Assembly: GCA_022567875.1 (NCBI GenBank)
Contig: JADFGB010000019.1
Coordinates: 1 to 10,283 of the forward strand
DNA from: Bacteroidota bacterium
GTDB taxonomy: Bacteria; Bacteroidota; Ignavibacteria; Ignavibacteriales; Ignavibacteriaceae
Direction: 5' to 3'
Length of the DNA: 10,283 bases
Numbering within the stretch: position 1 is the first letter of the stretch; each line of letters starts with the position of its first letter. The notes under the pieces were generated by a model. The model saw only the letters and a list, made by a program, of their open reading frames with translations, was not told where the DNA came from and did not search any database. Shown here in pieces: positions 1 through 10,283 of this stretch. Position numbers and translations under genes: made by a program.

Positions 1-1
1 G

Positions 2-781
2 GAGTTTATATCTTCACAAAAACCATTATTTCGTGGAGGAAGAGAGATAGACCCCCTAAGAGTCCCAACCAGATTCGGAACATCTGTAACCACAAATAGA
101 CGAGTCGCAGAACTTACTGCAAATCTTAGAAGAGCAGAAGGTGTAAAAGGAGTTGGCATAAGCGAGGTATTTATTAGTCCAAATGCAAAAATACTAACAA
201 AGAGTGGAATACCAGAAGAAATACTTAAACGTCCTGGTGTAGAGTTTTCAAATGTTATAGAGTTTGCAAAGAAGGGTGGATTTGATGTCGTAGACCTCAA
301 GGGTATTGAGATAGCTACAATTCTTGACCCCAAAATAGGTAGACAAATTAGAGAAGATGAATTGAGAATTATAAACCCTAGTATACTTAAAACCAAATCC
401 CAACTCACCGATATATTCAATCAAGCTAAGGGAGTAGTACCTAAAATAGTACCTAAGGTAGTAAAGCACACTATAAAACCAAAAGAACCAGTAGTACCAT
501 TTAAACCTATGGAGAAATTTAGTTTACAATTTGAAAAAATTAAAAAAGATTTTAAGACTTTATCTTCATTAAAAATTGGTGAAGAAGGAGAAGTGGTGGG
601 TATATCAAGAGCTTGCCGGAAACAACAAAGAAGAAGACTATTAGATTTTGGAATTGTTCCCGGAACTAAAATAATCTCTGAATTACAAGGTTTTTCAAAA
701 GATCCTATAGCCTATAAAATTCGTGGGACACTAATTGCTTTAAGAAAACAACAGACAGATTATATTTATATAAAAAAATAA
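2..781 (+). CDS. FeoA-domain protein with unrecognised N-terminal region (5' partial)
   Basis: The frame is open from base 2 and has no stop before 781, giving at least 259 residues; the true start lies left of the window. The last ~80 residues are a clear FeoA (SH3-like) domain: [13 protein letters not shown], an [13 protein letters not shown] core, DPIAYKIRG and IALRKQQ. FeoA domains modulate FeoB-mediated Fe(II) uptake on the cytoplasmic side, and feoB follows after 10 bases. In related bacteria this FeoA type often sits at the C terminus of a DtxR-family iron regulator. I see no DtxR helix-turn-helix or metal-binding motif here. Residues 1-~140 are a Lys/Arg-rich sequence I cannot assign, followed by a Pro/Val/Lys linker (~145-168). 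An in-frame ATG at 509 would give a 90-residue stand-alone FeoA, but no convincing ribosome binding site precedes it. The FeoA domain is secure; the N-terminal fusion is real in the sequence but unexplained, and an assembly join is possible. Confidence 0.8.
435..458 (+). repeat. Two tandem 12-base repeats in the linker
   Basis: TAGTACCTAAAA is followed directly by TAGTACCTAAGG (10 of 12 bases identical). A further GTAGTACC stretch occurs near 490. In frame the repeats encode V-P-K-I/V-P-K-V, part of the Pro/Val/Lys linker that separates the unknown N-terminal region from the FeoA domain. The repeat is probably a slippage-prone linker rather than a regulatory element. Confidence 0.5.
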
Positions 782-791
782 TAAATCGAAA

Positions 792-1601
792 ATGAGTAAT
801 AGTTTAATACATAATTGTGAAACGTGTCCTGCCCACAATGTTGGTAATCTAACAAAACTGGGTATAAATATGGATAATTTTGATTTTGTAGTTGCACTTG
901 CAGGTAATCCAAACACTGGCAAAAGTACGGTCTTTAATGCGTTAACAGGATTAAAACAACATACAGGTAATTGGCCGGGTAAAACAGTCACCCGTGCAGA
1001 AGGAGGTTTTTTATACAACAATAAAAAATTTAAACTTGTTGATTTACCTGGAACATATTCTCTTTTATCCACAAGCACCGACGAAGAAGTTGCAAGAAAT
1101 TTTGTTCTGTTCGGTCAACCCGATGTAACTATTATAGTGGTTGATTCTTCGAGGTTGGAAAGAAATCTAAATTTAGTTTTACAAGTTCTTGAAATTACAA
1201 ACAGAGCCGTATTATGTCTTAATTTAATTGATGAAGCAAAAAGACACAGTATTATAATTGATGAAAGAAAATTATCAAAAGATTTGGGAATCCCGGTAGT
1301 ACCTACATCAGCAAGATATGATGAAGGGATAAACGAATTATTAAAAATGATTTATGAAGTAGCAACAGGTGCTTTTGTGTGCAAGCCTTATAAAATTAAA
1401 ACAGAATCAAAACAAGTTAAAAATGCTGTTGAAAAATTAAAGGGGAAATTATTACAAGCATTTCCGAAATTACCAAATGTTAATTGGGTTGCATTAAGAT
1501 TATTAGAAGGTGATCAAGAGATAATAAATGCAATCCGTTCCGGTGATTTAGGAAGTCTTGAAATTAAAAATTTTATACCTCTTTTAGAAGAGCAAACTTA
1601 A
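792..1601 (+). CDS. feoB: FeoB N-terminal GTPase domain as a separate protein
   Basis: This 269-residue cytoplasmic G domain of the ferrous iron transporter FeoB would bind GTP and control the membrane permease encoded next. All G motifs are visible: G1 GNPNTGKS (38-45), a G2-region Thr in HTGNWPGKT (57-65), G3 DLPG (84-87), G4 NLID (144-147) and G5 TSA (172-174). A helical spacer follows, including [10 protein letters not shown] (~232-241), and the protein stops inside it. Full FeoB proteins are usually 600-800 residues with the channel fused on; here TAA ends the frame and the channel restarts 15 bases later in the same frame. An unusual head, H7-x-C9-x2-C12-x2-H15, precedes the G domain and could bind metal or act as a thiol pair. 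ATG at 792 lies 10 bases after the FeoA-domain stop, with no clear ribosome binding site, consistent with translational coupling. The family is certain; whether the split is ancestral is inference. Confidence 0.93.
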
Positions 1602-1607
1602 CAATAG
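1599..1607 (+). other. Two in-frame stop codons splitting FeoB
   Basis: TAA (1599-1601), CAA, then TAG (1605-1607) lie in the same frame as both the GTPase ORF and the permease ORF. Only five further-reading codons separate the last sense codon of the first ORF from the TTG start at 1617. The AGG at 1606-1608, partly inside the TAG, is eight bases before that TTG and may serve as a weak ribosome binding site, so the second stop and the reinitiation signal overlap. Confidence 0.75.
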
Positions 1608-1616
1608 GTTAATATT

Positions 1617-3044
1617 TTGGAAAATATAAATAATACATATAGAGAATCAATTATAAGTGAAGCAACTACCCTTAGATGGGAAGTCGGCGAAAACTTTCAC
1701 GATTCATTAATGGAATCAATTTATAAAAACGCATCTGAGATAGCTGCGCATTCGGTGACACAAAAAAACAAGCAACAAAACCATACGTTCGATCAAAAGC
1801 TGGATAAAATTATTACAAGCAGAATGTTCGGTTTCCCAGCAATGTTTATTGTTTTAGCTGTTGTATTTTGGGTAACAATAATAGGTTCCAATGCTCCTTC
1901 TGCTATGCTTGCATCGGTTTTAATAGATAAATTTCATCCTTGGCTAAAAGAGATTGCAGCAGCTATATCCACTCCGCTATGGATTAGCGGTTTATTAATA
2001 GACGGTGCTTATCTTGGAATGGCTTGGGTAGTAAGTGTAATGCTGCCCCCAATGGCAATTTTCTTTCCGCTATTTACTTTACTTGAGGACTTTGGTTATT
2101 TACCAAGAGTATCCTTTAATATGGATAGTCTATTTAGAAAAGCCGGTGCCCATGGTAAACAGGCTTTAACAATGAGTATGGGGTTTGGTTGCAATGTTGC
2201 GGGTGTAATAGCAACTCGTGTTATTGATAGCCCTAGAGAAAGACTGATTGCTATTATTACTAATAATTTTGCATTATGCAACGGGAGATGGCCAACTCAA
2301 ATATTAATTGCTACTATATTTATCGGCGGTGCAGTACCTGGATATTTAGCAGGGATAGCTTCTGCCGGAGCTGTTGTTGGTGTTGCACTATTAGGTGTAG
2401 TTTTAAGCTTAGTTGTGTCATGGGGACTTTCCAGGACTGTTTTAAAAGGAGAAGCTTCAACTTTTAGTCTCGAACTTCCGCCATATAGACCCCCAAGAAT
2501 ATTGCGAACGCTGTATACTTCCTTAATTGATAGAACAGCTATTGTTCTTTGGCGTGCAGTAATATTTGCAGTCCCTGCAGGTTTAGTAATATGGCTTGTT
2601 TCAAATATTACAATAGAGGGAATTAGTCTTGCTGAATATTTTATTAATTGGTCAAATCCTTTTGGTTTGTTGTTTGGATTAAACGGCGTAATTCTTCTTG
2701 CCTATATTATTGCTATACCTGCAAATGAAATTGTTATACCTACAATTTTAATGCTAACAGTATTAACGTTAGGAATGAATTCTGTTGGAGCAGGTGATGG
2801 GGTGATGTTTGAACTTGAGTCCGTTAACGCTACTGCTGATATATTTAAAGCAGGTGGTTGGACCTTGCTAACAGGTATAAATTTAATGTTATTCAGTTTA
2901 ATACATAATCCTTGTTCAACAACTATTTATACTATTTATAAAGAAACCAGAAGTCTAAAATGGACAACAGTTTCTGCTTTGCTTCCTGTTGTTATGGGTT
3001 TTATTATTACTTTTTTTGTTGCTCAGATTTGGAGGTTAATTTAA
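1617..3044 (+). CDS. feoB: FeoB membrane permease domain (nucleoside-recognition/Gate domains)
   Basis: A 475-residue inner-membrane protein, the Fe(II) channel half of FeoB. Residues 1-~65 complete the helical spacer ([15 protein letters not shown], then [16 protein letters not shown]). Many hydrophobic segments follow (~71-90, 118-157, 228-272, 305-330, 352-390, 450-472). FeoB signatures are present: GFGCNV (189-194, Cys192), Cys221 in [19 protein letters not shown] (284-294) and [19 protein letters not shown] (431-449, Cys433). These correspond to the conserved channel and Gate cysteines of the family. The usual S/C-A-R-L-P after the second cysteine reads N-G-R-W-P here, a modest deviation. 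The start is taken as TTG 1617, because the next in-frame ATG (1710) would remove 31 residues that look like genuine spacer. It probably assembles with the separate GTPase and FeoA proteins. NCBI-style names for this piece include 'nucleoside recognition domain-containing protein'. Confidence 0.93.
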
Positions 3045-3055
3045 GGTAAAATAAT

Positions 3056-4279
3056 ATGAAAGGAATTATTTATATATTATTACTTTGTACGGCATTATTA
3101 ATAGCTGTTTCTTGTTCAGAATTGTTGCCTCCTGCACCAGAACCAGAAACTGTTTTAGCCGGACCAATTGAGGATTTAACGCCACAGCAATTACGTGATC
3201 ACCTAATCGGAGACGAACAATTTGGTAGAATTTTTGGTCAAAAAGACGGATTAGGACCAATTTTTGTTAGTAATGCTTGCGAGAGCTGCCACATTGGAGA
3301 TGGAAAAGGACATCCCTTGACTACCTTAATAAGGTTCGGAAAGTATAGTGGTGGTATTTGGGATCCAATGGTTGAAAAAGGAGGACCCCAACTACAAAAT
3401 AGATCAATTGCAGGATATCCACCTGAAACTGTACCAGGTGATGCAACTGGTGTTACACGTTTGATGCCGCCAGCTGTTACGGGGATGGGTTATCTTGCAG
3501 CAGTACCGGATGCGGTTATTTTAGGATTAGCGGATCCTAATGATTCGAATGGTGATGGTATATCAGGTGTTCCAAACTACATTCAACCGCTAGATTATTT
3601 TGTCCCATTACCTTCTCATATCCCTTCAAACGGAAGATACATAGGTAGATTTGGAAAAAAAGCAGGCGCAATCGATTTGCTTCAACAAATCGTTACAGCG
3701 TATAAAGAAGATATGGGAATTACTTCGGATTTCGATTTACAGGATAATTTCAACATCCAGGCAGGATTGACTACAGGCGACTTTGTTGACGATCCCGAAG
3801 TATCTGCAGCAATTGTTAACAATGTTGTTTTTTATGTTCGCACTCTAAAAGTACCGCCTCGGCGTAATGAAAATGATATCGATGTAATAGCAGGAGAAAA
3901 TTTATTTAATCAAATCAACTGTTCAGGTTGCCATATTCCGTCTTTGGTTACGGGATTTTCTGATGTGACCGCCTTGAGTAATAAAGTAATTTATCCTTAT
4001 ACTGATTTATTATTACATGATATGGGAAGTGTGCTTGACGATGGTTATACAGAAGGTACGGCACTTACATCTGAATGGCGAACAGCTCCCCTATGGGGCA
4101 TTGGGCTTGCAGAAGATTCACAAGGAGGCTTACCTTTTTATTTACATGATGGAAGAGTTTCAACCTTAGAGGCTGCAATCGGTTTTCACGGTGGTGAAGC
4201 TTCGAATAGTCGGGACGCGTTTAATAATCTTTCACCCGGAGAGAAAGTACAGCTCATCAAATTTTTGAAATCATTATGA
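3056..4279 (+). CDS. Di-heme c-type cytochrome lipoprotein, DUF1111 / di-heme oxidoreductase family
   Basis: This 407-residue exported protein begins with a hydrophobic signal and a lipobox-like AVSC (Cys20), suggesting a lipid-anchored periplasmic or outer-membrane-facing protein. Two covalent heme sites are visible: CESCH (75-79) and CSGCH (289-293). A Ca-loop-like D-P-N-D-S-N-G-D-G-I-S-G (160-171) and the family tail WRTAPLWGIG (341-350), LHDGR (363-367) and HGGEA (378-382) identify the DUF1111 group. That group is related to MauG/cytochrome c peroxidase and is often labelled 'thiol oxidoreductase', a function that is not established. DUF1111 genes are frequently found in iron-uptake neighbourhoods, and this one follows the FeoB permease by 11 bases. 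TTAAGG (3041-3046), overlapping the permease stop, gives a reasonable ribosome binding site for ATG 3056. The likely role is electron transfer or peroxidase-type redox chemistry in the periplasm; the substrate is unknown. Confidence 0.88.
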   Translation: MKGIIYILLLCTALLIAVSCSELLPPAPEPETVLAGPIEDLTPQQLRDHLIGDEQFGRIFGQKDGLGPIFVSNACESCHIGDGKGHPLTTLIRFGKYSGGIWDPMVEKGGPQLQNRSIAGYPPETVPGDATGVTRLMPPAVTGMGYLAAVPDAVILGLADPNDSNGDGISGVPNYIQPLDYFVPLPSHIPSNGRYIGRFGKKAGAIDLLQQIVTAYKEDMGITSDFDLQDNFNIQAGLTTGDFVDDPEVSAAIVNNVVFYVRTLKVPPRRNENDIDVIAGENLFNQINCSGCHIPSLVTGFSDVTALSNKVIYPYTDLLLHDMGSVLDDGYTEGTALTSEWRTAPLWGIGLAEDSQGGLPFYLHDGRVSTLEAAIGFHGGEASNSRDAFNNLSPGEKVQLIKFLKSL

Positions 4280-4318
4280 TAATAAACCCATCTAATTACA
4301 TAATAAATATGGTTTAAT

Positions 4319-4753
4319 ATGAATCAAACCCGTAGAGATTTTATGAAAAAATGTGGATTAATTTCTGCAGCACTTGTTTACGGTGGAAGTTCTTTAATGT
4401 TGGAGGGTTGTGCTAGCGTAAGCTATTTTCCTTATAGTGAAGAGAAAAACCTGTTAGTTATTAAAAAATCTAATTTTGTTAAAGACAAATACGGTTTAAT
4501 AGAGTACAAAAATTTACCCGCTCCTATCTACATTACAAAATTGGAAGACGATAATTATTCAGCTGTCTTATTAGAATGCACTCATAAAAGATGTGAAGTA
4601 TCACCGGCGGGAAATCTCCTAATATGTCCTTGTCATGGAAGTGAATATTCGAATACTGGAAAAGTATTACAACCACCCGCAGATAAAGATTTATATTCAT
4701 TCAGAATTAAAACAGACTCTGAAAACATTTATGTAAATGTTAAGAACAATTGA
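4319..4753 (+). CDS. Small Tat-signal Rieske [2Fe-2S] protein
   Basis: A 144-residue protein with an N-terminal twin-arginine-like signal (TRRDFMKKCG, residues 4-13) and a hydrophobic stretch to ~29, so folded export with a cofactor is likely. A possible non-canonical lipobox, LEGC (Cys31), follows. The Rieske cluster motifs are C87-T-H89-K-R-C92 and C103-P-C105-H106-G-S. Cys87, His89, Cys103 and His106 would ligate the [2Fe-2S] cluster, and Cys92-Cys105 could form the disulfide seen in bc1/b6f-type high-potential Rieske proteins. The usual box 1 Gly (CTHLGC) is replaced by Arg91. There is no cytochrome b gene beside it, so this is unlikely to be a standard bc1 subunit. Lying between a di-heme cytochrome and a porin, it is a plausible electron carrier for the cytochrome. 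ATG 4319 is 39 bases after the upstream stop. Confidence 0.9.
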   Translation: MNQTRRDFMKKCGLISAALVYGGSSLMLEGCASVSYFPYSEEKNLLVIKKSNFVKDKYGLIEYKNLPAPIYITKLEDDNYSAVLLECTHKRCEVSPAGNLLICPCHGSEYSNTGKVLQPPADKDLYSFRIKTDSENIYVNVKNN

Positions 4754-4756
4754 AGG
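4753..4756 (+). promoter_or_regulatory. Ribosome binding site choosing the porin start
   Basis: AAGG five bases before ATG 4762, in the context AAGGTAAAAATG, favours ATG 4762 over the in-frame TTG at 4750, which overlaps the Rieske stop. The di-heme cytochrome gene has a similar AAGGTAAAA sequence before its ATG (from 3043). Confidence 0.45.
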
Positions 4757-4761
4757 TAAAA

Positions 4762-5940
4762 ATGTTAAAAATATATATTACATTAGTCTACTTTATATTG
4801 CTAGTGACTCCAATTATTGGACAACAAGATACTTCTGTTGTTCAAGATGCTATTTATAATCGTCCATTTATCACCTCTGCATTTCCGGTAGCTCTAGGCG
4901 GATACTTGGAAGGAAACACTAACTACTTTTCTGAAGATGGTGTTTCTGAAGGCTTTTCGATGGAATTTAGAAGATTTAATATCTTTCTTTATTCTACTAT
5001 TATTCCGAGGGTAAGATTCTTTGCAGAATTGGAGTTTGAACATGGTACCGAAGAGATAGCTATTGAGACTGCTCAGGTAGAATTTGAATTTCTTCAAGCG
5101 TTGGTGTTTCGAGCCGGTATTATAATCGTCCCCATTGGAGCTTATAACGTGAACCACGATCCTCCGAAATATGAATTTGTAGAACGACCATTAGAAGCCA
5201 CGAAAATCATTCCAACAACGCTTTCAGACATAGGATTTGGTTTTAATGGCAAGATTTTTTGGAATAATTTATTGTTTACTTACGATGCTTATTTAGTTAA
5301 CGGCTTGAACGATGGAATAATTTTAAACGATCAGGGACGTACCTTTCTCGGAAGTGGAAAAGCAGAAGAACGTTTTGCTGAAGATAATAACGGTTCTCCT
5401 ACATTTTCAGGCAGACTTGCTGTAAAATCCCAAAAGTTTGGTGAATTAGGAATTTCATATTATAGAGGTATTTACAATTCATTCCGGATTGAAGGAGAAA
5501 CGGTAGATGCAAAACGAAGTATCGGAATAATGGCAATAGATTTCAACACTAAGATTGAGAAATTAATTATACAAGGAGAGTTCGCAGTAAATTCAATCGA
5601 GGTGCCAAAAAATATTTCTGAAATATTCGGGACTAAACAATGGGGTGGTTACCTTGATATAGTTTATCCTGTCATTAAAGCGAATATTCTTGGTTTTGAT
5701 AACTCTGTTATTAATTTAGCTGTACGGTTAGAACGAATTGATTACAACGTTGGTAAATTCGCTGAGACCGGTAAAAATATATACGATGACATCAATGGTC
5801 TCTCATTTGCAATTAGTTTTCGTCCTGCTCCTGGAACTGTGTTTAGGGCTAATTATATTCATTATTGGAGCCGCGATGTTTTAGGTAATCCTACTGTTAA
5901 AACTACAGGCTTTCAGTTTGGGTTAACAACTTATTTTTAA
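4762..5940 (+). CDS. Outer-membrane beta-barrel porin (phosphate-selective porin O/P-like)
   Basis: About 392 residues from ATG 4762: a cleavable signal (hydrophobic ~4-18, cut likely near IIG-QQ), then many short amphipathic beta strands with aromatic ends (GGYLEGNTNYF, MEFRRFNIFLYS, RVRFFAELEFEHG, LGISYYRGIY). The protein ends in GLTTYF, a terminal Phe typical of BAM-assembled outer-membrane barrels. The FRRFNIFL...FFAELEFEHG layout and the APGTVFRANYIHYW segment near the end resemble porins of the OprO/OprP type, but the family is assigned by pattern only. It starts eight bases after the Rieske stop, so it is very probably co-transcribed. In this context it may admit an iron source or another small solute to the periplasm; the specificity cannot be read from the sequence. 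Confidence 0.75.
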   Translation: MLKIYITLVYFILLVTPIIGQQDTSVVQDAIYNRPFITSAFPVALGGYLEGNTNYFSEDGVSEGFSMEFRRFNIFLYSTIIPRVRFFAELEFEHGTEEIAIETAQVEFEFLQALVFRAGIIIVPIGAYNVNHDPPKYEFVERPLEATKIIPTTLSDIGFGFNGKIFWNNLLFTYDAYLVNGLNDGIILNDQGRTFLGSGKAEERFAEDNNGSPTFSGRLAVKSQKFGELGISYYRGIYNSFRIEGETVDAKRSIGIMAIDFNTKIEKLIIQGEFAVNSIEVPKNISEIFGTKQWGGYLDIVYPVIKANILGFDNSVINLAVRLERIDYNVGKFAETGKNIYDDINGLSFAISFRPAPGTVFRANYIHYWSRDVLGNPTVKTTGFQFGLTTYF

Positions 5941-6011
5941 ATTATTTTACCTGTACTGAAAAGATATCCAACAATATTCAATTGATATTATTTAACACCA
6001 CATAGTAATTG

Positions 6012-6030
6012 AAAGATTTAATTATCTTTT
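6012..6030 (+). terminator. Weak AT hairpin in the gap before xthA
   Basis: AAAGAT (6012-6017), loop TTAATT, ATCTTT (6024-6029) and one further T form a 6-base-pair stem in the 147-base gap between the porin and the exonuclease gene. It could end the iron-cluster transcript, but the stem is short, AT-rich and lacks a full U tract. A TTGAAA at 6009-6014 overlaps it and may instead be part of a promoter. I see nothing else in this gap. Confidence 0.25.
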
Positions 6031-6087
6031 ATTAAGTAATTTAAACCTTTATATGTTTATAAGAATTTATTTTAAGGGAATATTTTT

Positions 6088-6861
6088 ATGAAGAAAGTGA
6101 GAATCTTATCTTGGAACGTTAACGGGATAAGAGCTGTATATAAAAAAGGTTTTGTTGAATGGATTAGAAGCGTCGATCCTGATATACTTTGCATTCAGGA
6201 AACTAAAGCCAGAGAAGAACAATTACCTGAAGATTTAAAAAACATAGACAATTATCAATCTTATTTCTGCTGGGGTGAAAAAAAGGGTTACAGCGGAACT
6301 GCAATTTATACAAAAGAAAAACCGAAAAATGTCAGCAGAAAACTTGGTATTGAAAAATTTGATAATGAAGGACGTATATTAATTGCAGAATATGATGCTT
6401 TCACATTATTCAATATTTATTTTCCCAACGGAAAAGCTAAAGAAGAAAGACTTCAGTATAAAATGGACTTTTACGAAGCGTTTCTTAACCACGTTAAAAA
6501 ACTTAAAGATAAAGGAAAAAAAATTATTATATGCGGAGATGTAAACACGGCGCACAAAGAAATTGACCTTGCAAGACCAAAATCTAACGAAAAAACTTCA
6601 GGCTTTTTACCCGAAGAGAGAGCTTGGATTGACGAATTATTGGCTAACGGTTTTTTAGATACCCTGCGTATGTTTAACGACAAACCGGAACAATATTCCT
6701 GGTGGGATATGATAACCAGAGCCAGGGAAAGAAACGTAGGTTGGCGTATAGATTATTTTTTTATAAGTGATAATCTAAAAGAACAAACTATGGATGCTTT
6801 TATTATGCCTGAGGTAATGGGTTCAGATCATTGTCCTGTTGGGCTTAAAATATCAGTTTAA
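6088..6861 (+). CDS. xthA: Exodeoxyribonuclease III (AP endonuclease)
   Basis: A 257-residue cytoplasmic DNA repair enzyme of the exonuclease III/APE1 fold. It cleaves DNA 5' to abasic sites and removes 3' blocking groups in base excision repair. Family landmarks are in order: SWNVNGIRA with Asn10, QETK with metal-binding Glu38, YSGTAIYTK (68-76), YFPNG with Tyr111, GDVNTAH with Asp151 and Asn153, the long SWWDMITRARERNVGWRIDY (204-223) with Asp222, and GSDHCPV with the catalytic pair Asp247-His248. Length is normal and no key residue is missing. AAGGGA (6074-6079), eight bases before ATG 6088, is the best ribosome binding site in the window. The 147-base gap upstream suggests a promoter separate from the iron cluster. 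The gene may also be named exoA. Confidence 0.96.
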   Translation: MKKVRILSWNVNGIRAVYKKGFVEWIRSVDPDILCIQETKAREEQLPEDLKNIDNYQSYFCWGEKKGYSGTAIYTKEKPKNVSRKLGIEKFDNEGRILIAEYDAFTLFNIYFPNGKAKEERLQYKMDFYEAFLNHVKKLKDKGKKIIICGDVNTAHKEIDLARPKSNEKTSGFLPEERAWIDELLANGFLDTLRMFNDKPEQYSWWDMITRARERNVGWRIDYFFISDNLKEQTMDAFIMPEVMGSDHCPVGLKISV

Positions 6862-6869
6862 GTATTAAT

Positions 6870-6905
6870 ATAATTTCTTATTTTTAATCCCTCAAATTAT
6901 TTTTT
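6870..6905 (+). terminator. Possible AT-only terminator after xthA
   Basis: ATAATTT (6870-6876) pairs with AAATTAT (6894-6900) around a 17-base loop and is followed by five further T residues (6901-6905). The stem has no G:C pair, so it would be weak; trhO begins 15 bases later on the same strand. Chance is likely in DNA this AT-rich. Confidence 0.22.
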
Positions 6906-6920
6906 AATAAATTTAGTTAT

Positions 6921-7808
6921 ATGAAGAATTACAGAGTATTATTATTTTATAAATATGTAAATGTGGGAGACCCTGAACAGTTTCAAAACGAACACTTAAA
7001 ATTTTGTTTTGAAAACAATATAAAAGGAAGAATATATATAGCTAAAGAGGGAATAAACGGGACAGTCTCAGGAAAAACATCTGATATTGAATCATATAAA
7101 TCTAAATTGAGAAGCTACACAATTTTTAAAGATATTGTTTTTAAGGAAGATGAAGAAGATAAAATTGCTTTTACTAAAATGCACGTTAGAGTAAAAAAAG
7201 AAATTATTCATTCCGGGTTAAACGGAACTTCCTTAAAAAATGGGGGGAAAAGATTAAAACCTGAAGAGTTACTAAAATTTTATGAAGAAGAAAAAGATTT
7301 TGTGATTATAGACGCAAGGAATTGGTATGAAAGTAAATTGGGTAAATTTAAAAATGCCATAACACCGCAGATGAAAAATTTCCGTGAATGGAAAAAAACG
7401 GTAAAAGATTTAGAAGAATATAAAAACAAAACTGTTGTAACTTATTGCACAGGCGGCATCAGATGCGAGAAGGCTTCAGCTTATATGGTTGAACAAGGAT
7501 TTAAAGATGTTTATCAACTTGATGGCGGGATTGTAACTTATACAAAAAAATATCCCAATACATATTGGGAGGGAAGCATATGGGTCTTCGATGAAAGATA
7601 TGCGGTTGATGTTAACACAGAAGAAGAACTAAAATATACAACTAAATGTGAGCATTGCGGAACCCCAACTTCATATTACATAAATTGTCATAGTGTAGAG
7701 TGTGATAAAATAATTTTTTATTGCCATCAGTGTAAGAAAGATATGGACTACTGCTGTTCTGAAGATTGTAAAAACGCCCCAAGAAAAAGGCCAAGATATT
7801 ACGGATAA
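6921..7808 (+). CDS. trhO: tRNA uridine(34) hydroxylase, rhodanese-type
   Basis: A 295-residue cytoplasmic protein of the TrhO/YceA family, which hydroxylates wobble uridine 34 of tRNAs as the first step of oxygen-dependent 5-methoxyuridine/5-carboxymethoxyuridine formation. The N-terminal acylphosphatase-like domain (~1-95) carries GRIYIAKEGINGTVSG (36-51) and KMHVRVKKEII. A rhodanese domain (~113-215) has IDARNWYES (130-138) and the active-site loop C176-TGGIRC. The C-terminal region (243-283) contains nine cysteines spaced like a zinc-binding element (CEHC, CDKI...CHQC, CCSEDC). These features match full-length family members. ATG 6921 lies 59 bases after xthA, with no clear ribosome binding site. 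Older names are yceA or 'rhodanese-related sulfurtransferase'. Confidence 0.95.
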   Translation: MKNYRVLLFYKYVNVGDPEQFQNEHLKFCFENNIKGRIYIAKEGINGTVSGKTSDIESYKSKLRSYTIFKDIVFKEDEEDKIAFTKMHVRVKKEIIHSGLNGTSLKNGGKRLKPEELLKFYEEEKDFVIIDARNWYESKLGKFKNAITPQMKNFREWKKTVKDLEEYKNKTVVTYCTGGIRCEKASAYMVEQGFKDVYQLDGGIVTYTKKYPNTYWEGSIWVFDERYAVDVNTEEELKYTTKCEHCGTPTSYYINCHSVECDKIIFYCHQCKKDMDYCCSEDCKNAPRKRPRYYG

Positions 7809-7842
7809 GCATTCAAATCTAAATGAATAATAACGACAAACA

Positions 7843-8628
7843 ATGAATAAAAAATTTCTTATTATAATTTTTATTTTTTCCTTAACAACTTCTCTTTATT
7901 CGCAAACAGATACTTTAAAAACCTACTACCCTAATAACAATTTAAAATCAGTGATACCTTTACTTGATAGCTTAAGAAACGGTCTTGCTAAGTTTTATTT
8001 TGATAATAAAAAAATAAAAGAAGAAAGACCTTATATAAATGGAAGAGTTGAAGGCGTTGTTAAGCATTATTATAAATCCGGTGCATTGAAATCTTTATAT
8101 TCAATACTTAATGGAAAAAGAGAAGGTAACTATACTTTGTATGATGAAAAGGGCGAAGTGTTAAAAGATGTAAATTTTGTAGGTGGTAAAATAGACGTAA
8201 AAAAAATTCCATTTTATGTAGATAAAGAAGAAACTTTTTTAAACAAATCAATTAAAAAAATAAAAGAAAAACGAACCGGCGTACCACTTCCACCCAAAAT
8301 AGAGGAAGAAAATTTTAAAGATGATCCTGCTTATTATCTAAATGTAGAAGTTATGCCAAAACCAATTGGGGGAATGGCAGGGATTTATAAAAAGTTATTT
8401 TATCCTAGCTTAGCGAGAAAGAATGATATTCAAGGTATAGTAAAGGTTAGAGCATTTATTGAGAAGAATGGAAAAGTAAGTAAAACTGAAATTATAAAAG
8501 GGCTTGGTTATGGATGCGATAAATCAGCAGAAATTGCTGTTAAATTTACAAGATTTACACCCGGTTTATTAAGAGGACAAAAAGTTAAAGTACAAATGGT
8601 AATACATGTTGAATTTAAATATCCTTAA
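7843..8628 (+). CDS. Secreted MORN/YwqK-repeat protein with TonB C-terminal domain
   Basis: A 261-residue protein with a hydrophobic N-terminal signal and a likely cut at LYS-QTD (~20-21), a form common in Bacteroidota. Residues ~46-117 hold three repeats of about 23-24 residues of the YwqK/MORN type, each opening near NG-x-x-x-G and holding Y/F-Y/F-x-x-G/N (NGLAKFYFDN, NGRVEGVVKHYYKSG, NGKREGNYTLYDEKG). Residues ~168-261 form a TonB C-terminal domain: YPSLARKNDIQGIVKVRAFI, the KNGKV turn and FTPGLLRGQKVKV. TonB domains normally transmit inner-membrane energy to outer-membrane receptors. Here there is no evident uncleaved N-terminal anchor, Pro-rich spanner or adjacent exbBD, so this is better called TonB-domain-containing than a proven transducer. 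It follows trhO by 34 bases and may share its transcript. Confidence 0.85.
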   Translation: MNKKFLIIIFIFSLTTSLYSQTDTLKTYYPNNNLKSVIPLLDSLRNGLAKFYFDNKKIKEERPYINGRVEGVVKHYYKSGALKSLYSILNGKREGNYTLYDEKGEVLKDVNFVGGKIDVKKIPFYVDKEETFLNKSIKKIKEKRTGVPLPPKIEEENFKDDPAYYLNVEVMPKPIGGMAGIYKKLFYPSLARKNDIQGIVKVRAFIEKNGKVSKTEIIKGLGYGCDKSAEIAVKFTRFTPGLLRGQKVKVQMVIHVEFKYP

Positions 8629-8641
8629 TTCTTAAATTAAG
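8624..8641. terminator. Bidirectional hairpin over two convergent stop codons
   Basis: CTTAATT (8624-8630), loop CTTA, AATTAAG (8635-8641) form a perfect 7-base-pair stem. It includes the TAA of the TonB-domain gene (8626-8628) and, in its loop, the stop codon of the minus-strand pdxB (8632-8634). On the + strand ATTGTTTT follows. Position at a tail-to-tail junction supports a shared terminator, but the stem is AT-rich and short. Confidence 0.4.
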
Positions 8642-9762
8642 ATTGTTTTAAAACGCAGCTTGTCTAAAATTTCTTTTTCCTTACTGTATTTTAAATTTAT
8701 TAAAATATTATAATTAACAAATTCTCTTCTTGTTTTATAATTTTTTCTTAAATCATCAAATATATTTTTTTCGCGATTTAATATATTTAATAAATTTTGG
8801 TGGTCGTCATTAATATCATAAATGTTTTTTATAATTGATAATAATGTGTTTTCTACATTGCCAATTTCTCTAAAAGTTAACTCTTTTGATATAAAGGTAG
8901 ATTCTTCAAAATCCCATTGTGTCTTTTGATTCAAGAATTTGCAAAGATGAGTATAAACAGCTTTTGTTCCGTTTATTTTACCGTTATGTGTATAACCTGC
9001 AATATGCGGTGTCCCTATATCAACTAGCTTTAATAAATTTAAATTAATATTAGGTTCATTTTCCCAAACATCAAGCACAGATATTAAATTTTTAGATTTT
9101 ATTATTTTGATAAGTGCAGCATTATCAACCACACTCCCCCTTGATGTATTAATCAGGATAGAGTTATCTTTAAGATTTTTTAAGATATTAAAATCAAATA
9201 GATGGTGAGTTTTATGTTTGCCTTTATTTGTATAAGGAACGTGCAGTGTTAGAATATCAGCATTTAATACTTCCTTTAGTGGAAGATATTTTTTATTGGA
9301 TGTTAATTCTTTCAAAGGTGGGTCGTTAAGGAGAATTTTCATTCCAAAGGATTTTGCAAAATCTGCTACCTTACTTCCTATATTACCTACACCAATAATT
9401 CCGATGGATTTATCTTTTAATGAAAAATTGTATTTAACAGCTAAATTTAATAGCGCTGTTATTACATACTCTGTAACAGAATATGAATTTGAGCCTGGAG
9501 CATTACAATTATAAATGTTTTTTTCATTTAAATAATTTATATCTAAGTGATCAACACCAATAGTTGTACTACCAACAAATCTAATGTTAGTATTCTCAAG
9601 TAAATTTCTATCTACTTTAGTAACAGAGCGGACAAAAAGAATTTCAGAATTTTTTATAGATCTGTTAGTTATTTCTTTTCCGGGGAGTAGGGTTACTTTG
9701 CCAAAAGGAGAGAAGACCTTTTTTGCAAGTAAAATGTTTTCATCTGCTAAAATATTTAACAT
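8632..9762 (-). CDS. pdxB: Erythronate-4-phosphate dehydrogenase
   Basis: A 376-residue NAD-dependent D-2-hydroxyacid dehydrogenase family enzyme. PdxB oxidises 4-phosphoerythronate in the DXP-dependent pathway to pyridoxal phosphate. Evidence: ADENI at the N terminus, FVRSVTKV (43-50), FVGSTTIGVDH (62-72), APGSNSYSVTEYV (88-100) and the Rossmann loop G124-V-G126-N-I-G129. The catalytic set is Arg208 in NTSRGSVVDN, Glu236 in DVWENEP and His253 in GTPHIAGYT. The DVW.NEP.LNLLKLVDIGTPHIAGYT arrangement is diagnostic of PdxB over SerA. The C-terminal ~100 residues, the dimerisation region, are divergent and Asn/Lys/Ile-rich, but overall length matches the ~380-residue family. The gene reads leftward, convergent with the TonB-domain gene and divergent from mgtE, with no other B6 gene in the window. 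Confidence 0.93.
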   Translation of the reverse strand: MLNILADENILLAKKVFSPFGKVTLLPGKEITNRSIKNSEILFVRSVTKVDRNLLENTNIRFVGSTTIGVDHLDINYLNEKNIYNCNAPGSNSYSVTEYVITALLNLAVKYNFSLKDKSIGIIGVGNIGSKVADFAKSFGMKILLNDPPLKELTSNKKYLPLKEVLNADILTLHVPYTNKGKHKTHHLFDFNILKNLKDNSILINTSRGSVVDNAALIKIIKSKNLISVLDVWENEPNINLNLLKLVDIGTPHIAGYTHNGKINGTKAVYTHLCKFLNQKTQWDFEESTFISKELTFREIGNVENTLLSIIKNIYDINDDHQNLLNILNREKNIFDDLRKNYKTRREFVNYNILINLKYSKEKEILDKLRFKTILI

Positions 9763-9880
9763 TAAATTCTTGTTTGTTTAACTATAATAGAATATATTTT
9801 TTTATTAAAAAAACTGTACTAATTAAAAATAATCTTGTTTAACCGATGTAATTATAAACACTAATTTAGCGAGAAGAGAA
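9763..9880. promoter_or_regulatory. Divergent AT-rich intergenic region between pdxB and mgtE
   Basis: This 118-base spacer must contain the start signals for both genes. Visible elements are a TATAAT on the + strand (9783-9788), an A/T-tract palindrome of seven T, ATT and seven A (9797-9813), and two direct copies of TTGTTTAAC (9774-9782 and 9835-9843), 61 bases apart. A TATAAA at 9853-9858 follows the second copy by 12 bases, too close for a standard -35/-10 pair. There is no room or obvious structure for an M-box magnesium riboswitch. Individual promoter calls are not secure. Confidence 0.35.
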
Positions 9881-10283
9881 ATGCTAAGCCAGTTGCTTCA
9901 ACCTGAAATAATAGAATTGTTAAAAGAGCGTAAGCTTAGCACTTTAAAAGAAGTATTAAATGATTGGGACCCTACCGATTTAGCATCACTTATAAGTCAA
10001 ATTCCAGAAAAAGAAAGAGTAATTTTATTTCGCCTTCTAAAGCAAGATCTTGCTACCGAGACTTTTGAATTTCTTGAAGTAGAACAGCAGATTGAACTTA
10101 TTAAAGCAATGGGTAATGGTGAAGTCGCATCTATACTGAATGAAATGGCACCCGATGATCGTACAGCTTTATTTGAAGAACTTCCAAGCTCTGCAGTAAA
10201 ACAATTTGTAAGGATGCTTTCTGCTGAAGAAAGAAAAGTCGCACAAACTTTATTGGGTTATCCTGAAGATAGTGTCGGTCGTT
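9881..10283 (+). CDS. mgtE: Magnesium transporter MgtE, N-terminal part (3' partial)
   Basis: An open frame from ATG 9881 runs past the right edge, giving 134 residues. The sequence is the acidic all-helical MgtE N domain: LNDWDPTDLASLISQIPEKE, a VILFRLL helix, EMAPDDRTALFEELP, and LLGYPEDSVGR, the conserved segment just before the first CBS domain. Full MgtE proteins are ~450 residues, with N domain, two CBS domains and five membrane helices forming a Mg2+ channel gated by cytoplasmic Mg2+; the CBS and membrane parts lie outside this window. A purine-rich GAGAAGAGAA lies directly before the ATG, but no strong Shine-Dalgarno is seen. The gene is divergent from pdxB. Confidence 0.93.
   Translation, partial: MLSQLLQPEIIELLKERKLSTLKEVLNDWDPTDLASLISQIPEKERVILFRLLKQDLATETFEFLEVEQQIELIKAMGNGEVASILNEMAPDDRTALFEELPSSAVKQFVRMLSAEERKVAQTLLGYPEDSVGR

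Follow-up and report, generated by a model that had tools for sequence, protein, structure and literature searches.

A conserved trio of di-heme cytochrome, Rieske protein and porin as a candidate DtxR/MntR-repressed accessory of manganese or iron uptake

Introduction

The stretch of DNA analysed here (the window) comprises 10,283 nucleotides from a Bacteroidota bacterium of the family Ignavibacteriaceae (assembly GCA_022567875.1, contig JADFGB010000019.1, positions 1 to 10,283), and carries a six-gene array in which the genes of a split FeoB transporter are followed by those of a di-heme cytochrome of the DHOR/DUF1111 family, a Rieske protein and an outer-membrane porin. DHOR, Rieske protein and porin are a conserved trio, found in Bacteroidota, Balneolota, Ignavibacteriota and Gemmatimonadota. 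We propose, with a probability of roughly 0.55, that this unit is a DtxR/MntR-repressed accessory of Mn2+ and/or Fe2+ acquisition which includes a redox step. The proposal draws on the conservation of the unit, on DtxR-type boxes, on adjacency to metal importers and swaps between them, and on predicted folds. In the window the trio consists of:

3056..4279, + strand: di-heme DHOR/DUF1111 lipoprotein of the short, trio type (PF06537, E 3.6e-67), with a MauG/CCP fold
4319..4753, + strand: Rieske [2Fe-2S] protein with a twin-arginine (Tat) signal and lipobox Cys31 (PF00355, TIGR01409, alignments)
4762..5940, + strand: outer-membrane porin of 16 strands, OprP-like in fold; the start may be a TTG at 4750

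Conservation of the trio

Relatives were drawn from a class sample of 197 genomes and an overlapping phylum sample of 395 genomes. The locus set, which includes 80 named loci (the best 80 of at least 593), contains 96 loci with a short-type DHOR and 39 with a long-type one, a cut at 440 bits separating the two (the short type scores at least 449, the long type at most 376). At 95% identity the 96 short-type loci reduce to 84 non-redundant ones, to which the counts below refer.

A full-length short DHOR is present in 16/197 genomes of the class sample, with an adjoining Rieske gene in 16/16, a porin in 15/16 (the sixteenth stops at a contig edge) and FeoB directly upstream in 9/16. The short type occurs in 29/395 genomes of the phylum sample, at 577 bits or more, the remaining matches reaching at most 325 bits. 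Among the 84 non-redundant short loci a Rieske gene lies within 1.5 kb in 81 and both Rieske and porin genes are found in 80; three of the four loci without both partners stop at a contig edge (L063, L125, L139), and the fourth, L138 from Poribacteria, is without partners. Variation in arrangement is seen in L074, where a methyltransferase gene separates Rieske and porin, and in L135, where the porin comes first.

Long-type loci carry imelysin in 36/39 cases, a related porin in 18/39 and a Rieske gene in 4/39. DUF1111 proteins with imelysin are already known in iron uptake, according to PMC3143127. The trio shares with such DUF1111-imelysin loci (EfeUOB-like; IrpA/ICMP) the DHOR/DUF1111 enzyme, the metal-uptake setting and, in those 18 long-type loci, a homologous porin. 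It differs in having a Rieske protein in the place of imelysin (0/84), a short DHOR class separated by score and a DtxR-type box at the promoter; judged by sequence, the trio is a variation on the DUF1111-imelysin theme. In L183, L185 and L192, as in L147, porin, Rieske protein, imelysin and long-type DHOR stand together in the same direction, and these loci may connect the trio with the imelysin loci.

Metal importers and regulators beside the trio

Within 4 kb of the short-type DHOR, FeoB is found in 11/84 loci, Nramp in 6/84 and a metal ATP-binding cassette (ABC) importer in 2/84, giving any importer in 18/84 with L174 carrying both FeoB and an ABC importer; DtxR lies within the same distance in 35/84. 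Long-type loci contain neither importers (0/39; Fisher p against the short type 7e-4) nor DtxR (0/39; p 2e-7). L069 presents a tight operon of DtxR, metal-binding protein, DHOR, Rieske protein, porin, ABC ATPase and ABC-3 permease, its binding protein, the sole one typed, being nearest to manganese proteins. An earlier, sequence-only reading of the window had described a periplasmic redox module coupled to Feo import. The link to metal import is upheld by the importers and DtxR boxes; the special tie to feo is not. FeoB lies nearby in just 11/84 loci and the trio stands mostly without feo, an outcome that this reading had named beforehand as speaking against such a coupling. On the same count, a Feo-specific module was rejected as a candidate.

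Importer type requires 13 changes on the DHOR tree, which was built by a quick method with SH-aLRT support only. Strongly supported sister DHORs stand beside unlike importers, as in L073 with Feo and L127 with Nramp (85% identical), and in L069 with ABC and L123 with Nramp (81% identical). Split-Feo operons of this kind can lack the trio, as in L076-L080, and within the window's family three genomes that are 99-100% complete (G505, G509, G512) and one at 81% (G503) have the DtxR-FeoA gene and no trio-type DHOR, with G514 having both. Together, the importer swaps between sister DHORs and the DtxR-FeoA genomes devoid of a trio-type DHOR indicate that the trio joins and leaves importer operons.

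DtxR-type boxes

The core TTAG-N6-CTAA was suggested by palindromes found where DtxR and DHOR genes diverge. It was sought in a region that runs from -300 to +90 relative to the point where the DHOR open frame begins, with two of the 84 short and one of the 39 long loci omitted for too little upstream DNA. The exact box is present in 16/23 loci with DtxR within 1 kb, and in 35/45 loci that have neither DtxR nor a FeoB channel within 4 kb, for which the shuffle mean is 0.46 and 0/200 shuffles reach 35. It is found in 0/14 of the remaining loci, those with DtxR 1-4 kb off or FeoB near; nearly all are importer operons with their promoter elsewhere. At the operon starts of that type, where dtxR promoters head feo, Nramp and ABC operons, the exact core occurs in 9/19 (a count without shuffle control) and the exact variant TTAAG-N4-CTTAA in 5/19, among them L061, L062 and L082, the closest relatives of the window, with neither box exact in 5/19; five of the 19 (L076-L080) are without the trio. 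A DtxR-type box at the promoter is present in most of the relatives tested, the window itself being without its promoter.

Genome-wide, the box exceeded its reversed pattern in three of ten genomes (G275 50/30, G257 59/34, G220 2/0), equalled it in one (G240, 41) and fell below it in six (e.g. G307 4/25); as counts are rarely above the reversed pattern, only promoter positions are informative. Inspection covered all 16 sites of four low-count genomes and four sites picked from the 50 of G275. Six of the 16 precede DtxR, DtxR-Nramp, DtxR-ZnuA-ABC or TonB-receptor genes (three TonB receptors), and none of the four G275 sites lies before a DtxR or importer gene by the references used. One box in G275 (L218:2286) is followed, 166 bases on, by the gene of a di-heme peroxidase of the CCP_MauG family (PF03150).

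Several points weigh against a role in metal acquisition. The loci were chosen by DHOR similarity, so the counts are not population frequencies and the sample is not random. An importer is beyond reach in 66/84 loci, and importer, DtxR and efflux genes are all absent nearby in 29/84. Ten of the 16 genome box sites are not at metal genes. The 0/38 box count of the long-type loci is a weak control, because their DHOR mostly sits behind imelysin rather than at the head of the operon, leaving the shuffles as the real control; the operon-start counts have none, and the window's own promoter is missing. Finally, 28/84 short loci lie near heavy-metal efflux genes (CusA/CusB/HMA/MerT-like, within 8 kb) against 3/39 long-type loci (p 0.002), with the CusA reference named from its size and neighbour and the CusB-, P-type-ATPase- and MerT-like references identified by scanning. 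This proximity could mean a detoxification role, with the trio handling a toxic metal and travelling as cargo on resistance islands, an explanation we regard as very improbable: boxes of the kind that importer operons also carry point to expression when metal is scarce rather than abundant, and no locus (0/84) has importer and efflux genes both nearby. ArsR-like genes also occur within this distance, and in loci such as L093, L117, L163, L164 and L169 the trio resembles heavy-metal-island cargo.

Which metal

For the 35 regulators of trio loci, the nearest solved relatives are 5zr4, SloR, 6o5c, ScaR and 8pvt (220 to 171 bits). SloR and ScaR we take to be manganese sensors. Glu occupies position 100 in 34/35 regulators, at a site where iron-type DtxR and IdeR presumably carry Cys; Lys is found at 11 in 33/35, and His77, Glu103 and His104 in 35/35. 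Two details make manganese less certain: B. subtilis MntR, though a shorter protein, scores below IdeR against the regulator profile (89 vs 122 bits, DtxR about 112), and at the site of the Glu found in 34/35 regulators the sister L061 of the window carries His.

In Porphyromonas gingivalis, according to PMC4805248, the manganese FeoB FB2 is encoded in one operon with PgMntR, a DtxR protein that has FeoA domains and whose DNA binding is strengthened by Mn2+ and weakened by Fe2+. The likeness to the window is a DtxR-family protein with FeoA domain(s) in an operon with FeoB; the PgMntR-FB2 operon carries manganese, whereas the window's FeoB is split, the trio follows it and manganese and iron are both candidates for the metal carried. 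The relatives of the regulators, the Glu site and the PgMntR-FB2 parallel suggest that manganese is at least as likely as iron. Iron alone, the metal assumed at first, is too narrow in view of the SloR/ScaR-like regulators, the manganese-like binding protein of L069 and the PgMntR-FB2 manganese operon, the DtxR-FeoB operon that has been studied in this phylum.

Proteins of the trio and the redox step

In the proposed mechanism, a DtxR/MntR-type repressor would hold the trio off when metal is ample. Under metal shortage the OprP-fold porin would admit a metal or metal ligand through the outer membrane, and the di-heme lipoprotein would receive electrons from the Rieske lipoprotein. With these it would carry out a periplasmic redox step yielding divalent metal for an inner-membrane importer, the split FeoB in the window and an Nramp or metal ABC transporter elsewhere. 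Repression by metal-bound DtxR, the direction of the electrons, the substrate and metal reduction as the redox step are what we infer in this scheme. Metal reduction is favoured over peroxide removal. In its most specific form, a nutritional metal reductase in which electrons pass from Rieske protein to di-heme protein to porin-imported Mn(III/IV) or Fe(III), supplying Mn2+/Fe2+ to Nramp, MntABC-type transporters or a manganese-type split FeoB when manganese (or iron) is short, the idea is tentative and on balance unlikely.

The DHOR contains two CxxCH hemes within a CCP/MauG fold, and its closest folds include MauG and bacterial di-heme cytochrome c peroxidases. Its C20, both CxxCH motifs and a Gln/Glu pair are conserved; Gln114 (47/48) and Glu124 (46/48) stand ten residues apart as do Q103 and E113 of MauG entries, a comparison by spacing alone. 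It differs from MauG and the di-heme peroxidases in identity (22% at most), in being a lipoprotein and in carrying an invariant His378 (48/48) opposite the Met of the N. europaea peroxidase, an alignment that is weak at 5.9 bits. Both the folds and the Gln/Glu spacing would suit a peroxidase fed by the Rieske protein, serving periplasmic peroxide defence in metal shortage with no action on the metal; it would protect the cell and incoming Fe2+/Mn2+ while manganese-dependent defences are low. In PMC3143127 imelysin-DUF1111 loci are described as iron-uptake loci whose di-heme peroxidase resembles EfeB. This alternative leaves the obligate porin unexplained and sits uneasily with His378 in the place of Met, within the limits of that weak alignment, and we hold it to be possible, if rather less than likely.

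A di-heme enzyme of this fold might instead act in the manner of MauG or MbnH, modifying a residue of the porin or a binding protein and so making a metal site. No invariant Trp exists in the porin alignment (44 rows) or the Rieske alignment (42 rows), three Tyr of the porin (Y52, Y178, Y181) are invariant, and such maturation appears highly improbable.

The Rieske sequences are nearest to b6f/bc1 Rieske proteins, with which they share fold and ligands. Both disulphide cysteines are present in 19/42 rows and neither in 23/42; the trio protein is, moreover, a Tat lipoprotein without a cytochrome b partner. Its neighbours are DHOR and porin, in the window and, both nearby, in 80/84 loci, and neither cytochrome b nor terminal oxidase genes were found among the selected neighbours scanned. 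Fusions of DHOR and Rieske protein, considered as a sign of contact, were dropped, none occurring among the best 120 of 7895 matches; rarer or more distant fusions lie outside that scope.

These Rieske relationships bear on a branch for respiration or electron disposal that would be under common metal regulation yet have no part in uptake, which the sequence-only reading had offered as its alternative. It would agree with the NADH dehydrogenase genes (Oxidored_q6, Oxidored_q4; PF00507, PF01058) that adjoin the trio on the opposite strand at L065:8325-9268, and with Bizionia argentinensis, where neighbouring cytochrome c and Rieske genes (BZARG_RS03000, RS03005) are taken for complex III in PMC9478572. 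It fits poorly with the repeated adjacency of the trio to three unrelated importer families and with the lack of cytochrome b and oxidase genes just noted, and is improbable.

The porin, predicted by the sequence-only reading as an outer-membrane barrel at the end of the array, has no Pfam match, yet it models as an OprP-like barrel as had been anticipated. Its profile matched no solved structure by sequence even at E 10, and it differs from OprP/OprO porins in identity (13-14%), in belonging to no Pfam family and in its partner genes.

The six-gene array of the window

Upstream of the trio the window contains the following features:

1..531, + strand: putative foreign stretch (misjoin), source of the initial ~176 codons in the FeoA frame
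557..775, + strand: FeoA domain (PF04023, residues 186-258), which in relatives forms the C-terminus of a DtxR-FeoA protein
792..1601, + strand: FeoB G domain as a separate GTPase (PF02421, PF17910)
1617..3044, + strand: FeoB channel (Gate + FeoB_C; PF07670, PF07664), TTG start

Six co-oriented frames with gaps of 10, 15, 11, 39 and 8 bases were confirmed, the last gap presupposing a porin ATG at 4762 in a frame that opens at TTG 4750. Frames, gaps and the Pfam families FeoA, FeoB_N, Gate plus FeoB_C, DHOR and Rieske of the six-gene unit first described hold; the 5' part of the FeoA gene does not, being a probable misjoin.

The G domain and the Gate/FeoB_C channel, on two polypeptides, both score above the Pfam cut-off. 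Many genomes of the class share a channel-only FeoB frame, which marks the split as genuine, and in G009, G013 and G061 the equivalent channel lies inside a 734-781-aa frame. The channel matched no solved structure by sequence at E 1e-5. As another frame of the same genome, 683 aa long (G000:C273, about 2712-3644), also matches FeoB, the split FeoB is not the genome's sole FeoB.

The left end of the window departs from its relatives. A sister genome (L061) is 98.3% identical over window positions 521-6039, and similarity ends leftward of ~531. Positions 1-531 gave no match in the sister, the same genome or 40 related genomes, and no protein match at E 1e-3 among ~5.8 billion proteins in a word-based search. 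A phage origin was rejected, with no match in PHROGs, viral contigs or phage records. The junction sits on an A-rich stretch, as expected of an assembly misjoin; position 1 to ~531 is probably such a misjoin, with true recombination as the alternative. The operon's own promoter was lost with it, and for that reason its box could not be seen.

At the same place L061 encodes a 337-aa protein (813-1826). Its N-terminus looks hydrophobic by eye, and it contains a DtxR dimerisation domain as well as FeoA; a 218-aa DtxR, itself bearing a FeoA domain, is encoded ahead of it. DtxR-FeoA homologues occupy this position in 12 further loci (L062, L063, L068, L072-L080), and the window keeps just the last 82 residues. 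Given these relatives, the window's first gene should not be taken for a FeoA protein with a special N-terminus, nor is it the stand-alone small FeoA of a canonical feo operon. The hydrophobic N-terminus, next to the split FeoB, is perhaps a membrane anchor; in L069 (13020-14291) an ABC-3 permease bears a C-terminal DtxR dimerisation domain. Metal-sensor domains fused to transporters would perhaps give direct feedback on transport.

Significance

No open-licence paper describing DHOR, Rieske protein and porin as a unit was found in a full-text search, as far as titles, abstract openings and passages extend. In PMC9478572, a Bizionia mutant of MliR, a MerR-like protein, is poor in Fe, Mn and Zn, with falls in cytochrome c/Rieske, TonB receptors, imelysin and a Mn/Zn ABC transporter; one TonB receptor gene rose, not fell, with added ferric citrate. 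The trio might explain that cytochrome c/Rieske pair, whose identity as DHOR and partner could not be confirmed, and since MliR is not a DtxR and the TonB receptor rose with ferric citrate, the case is merely a lead.

If the proposed role is true, a redox step and an outer-membrane step would be added to manganese and iron uptake; were the reductase form to hold, this would be a dedicated periplasmic pathway of reductive manganese acquisition. The relatives suggest a portable unit, induced by metal shortage, that may aid the entry of manganese or iron in many bacteria.

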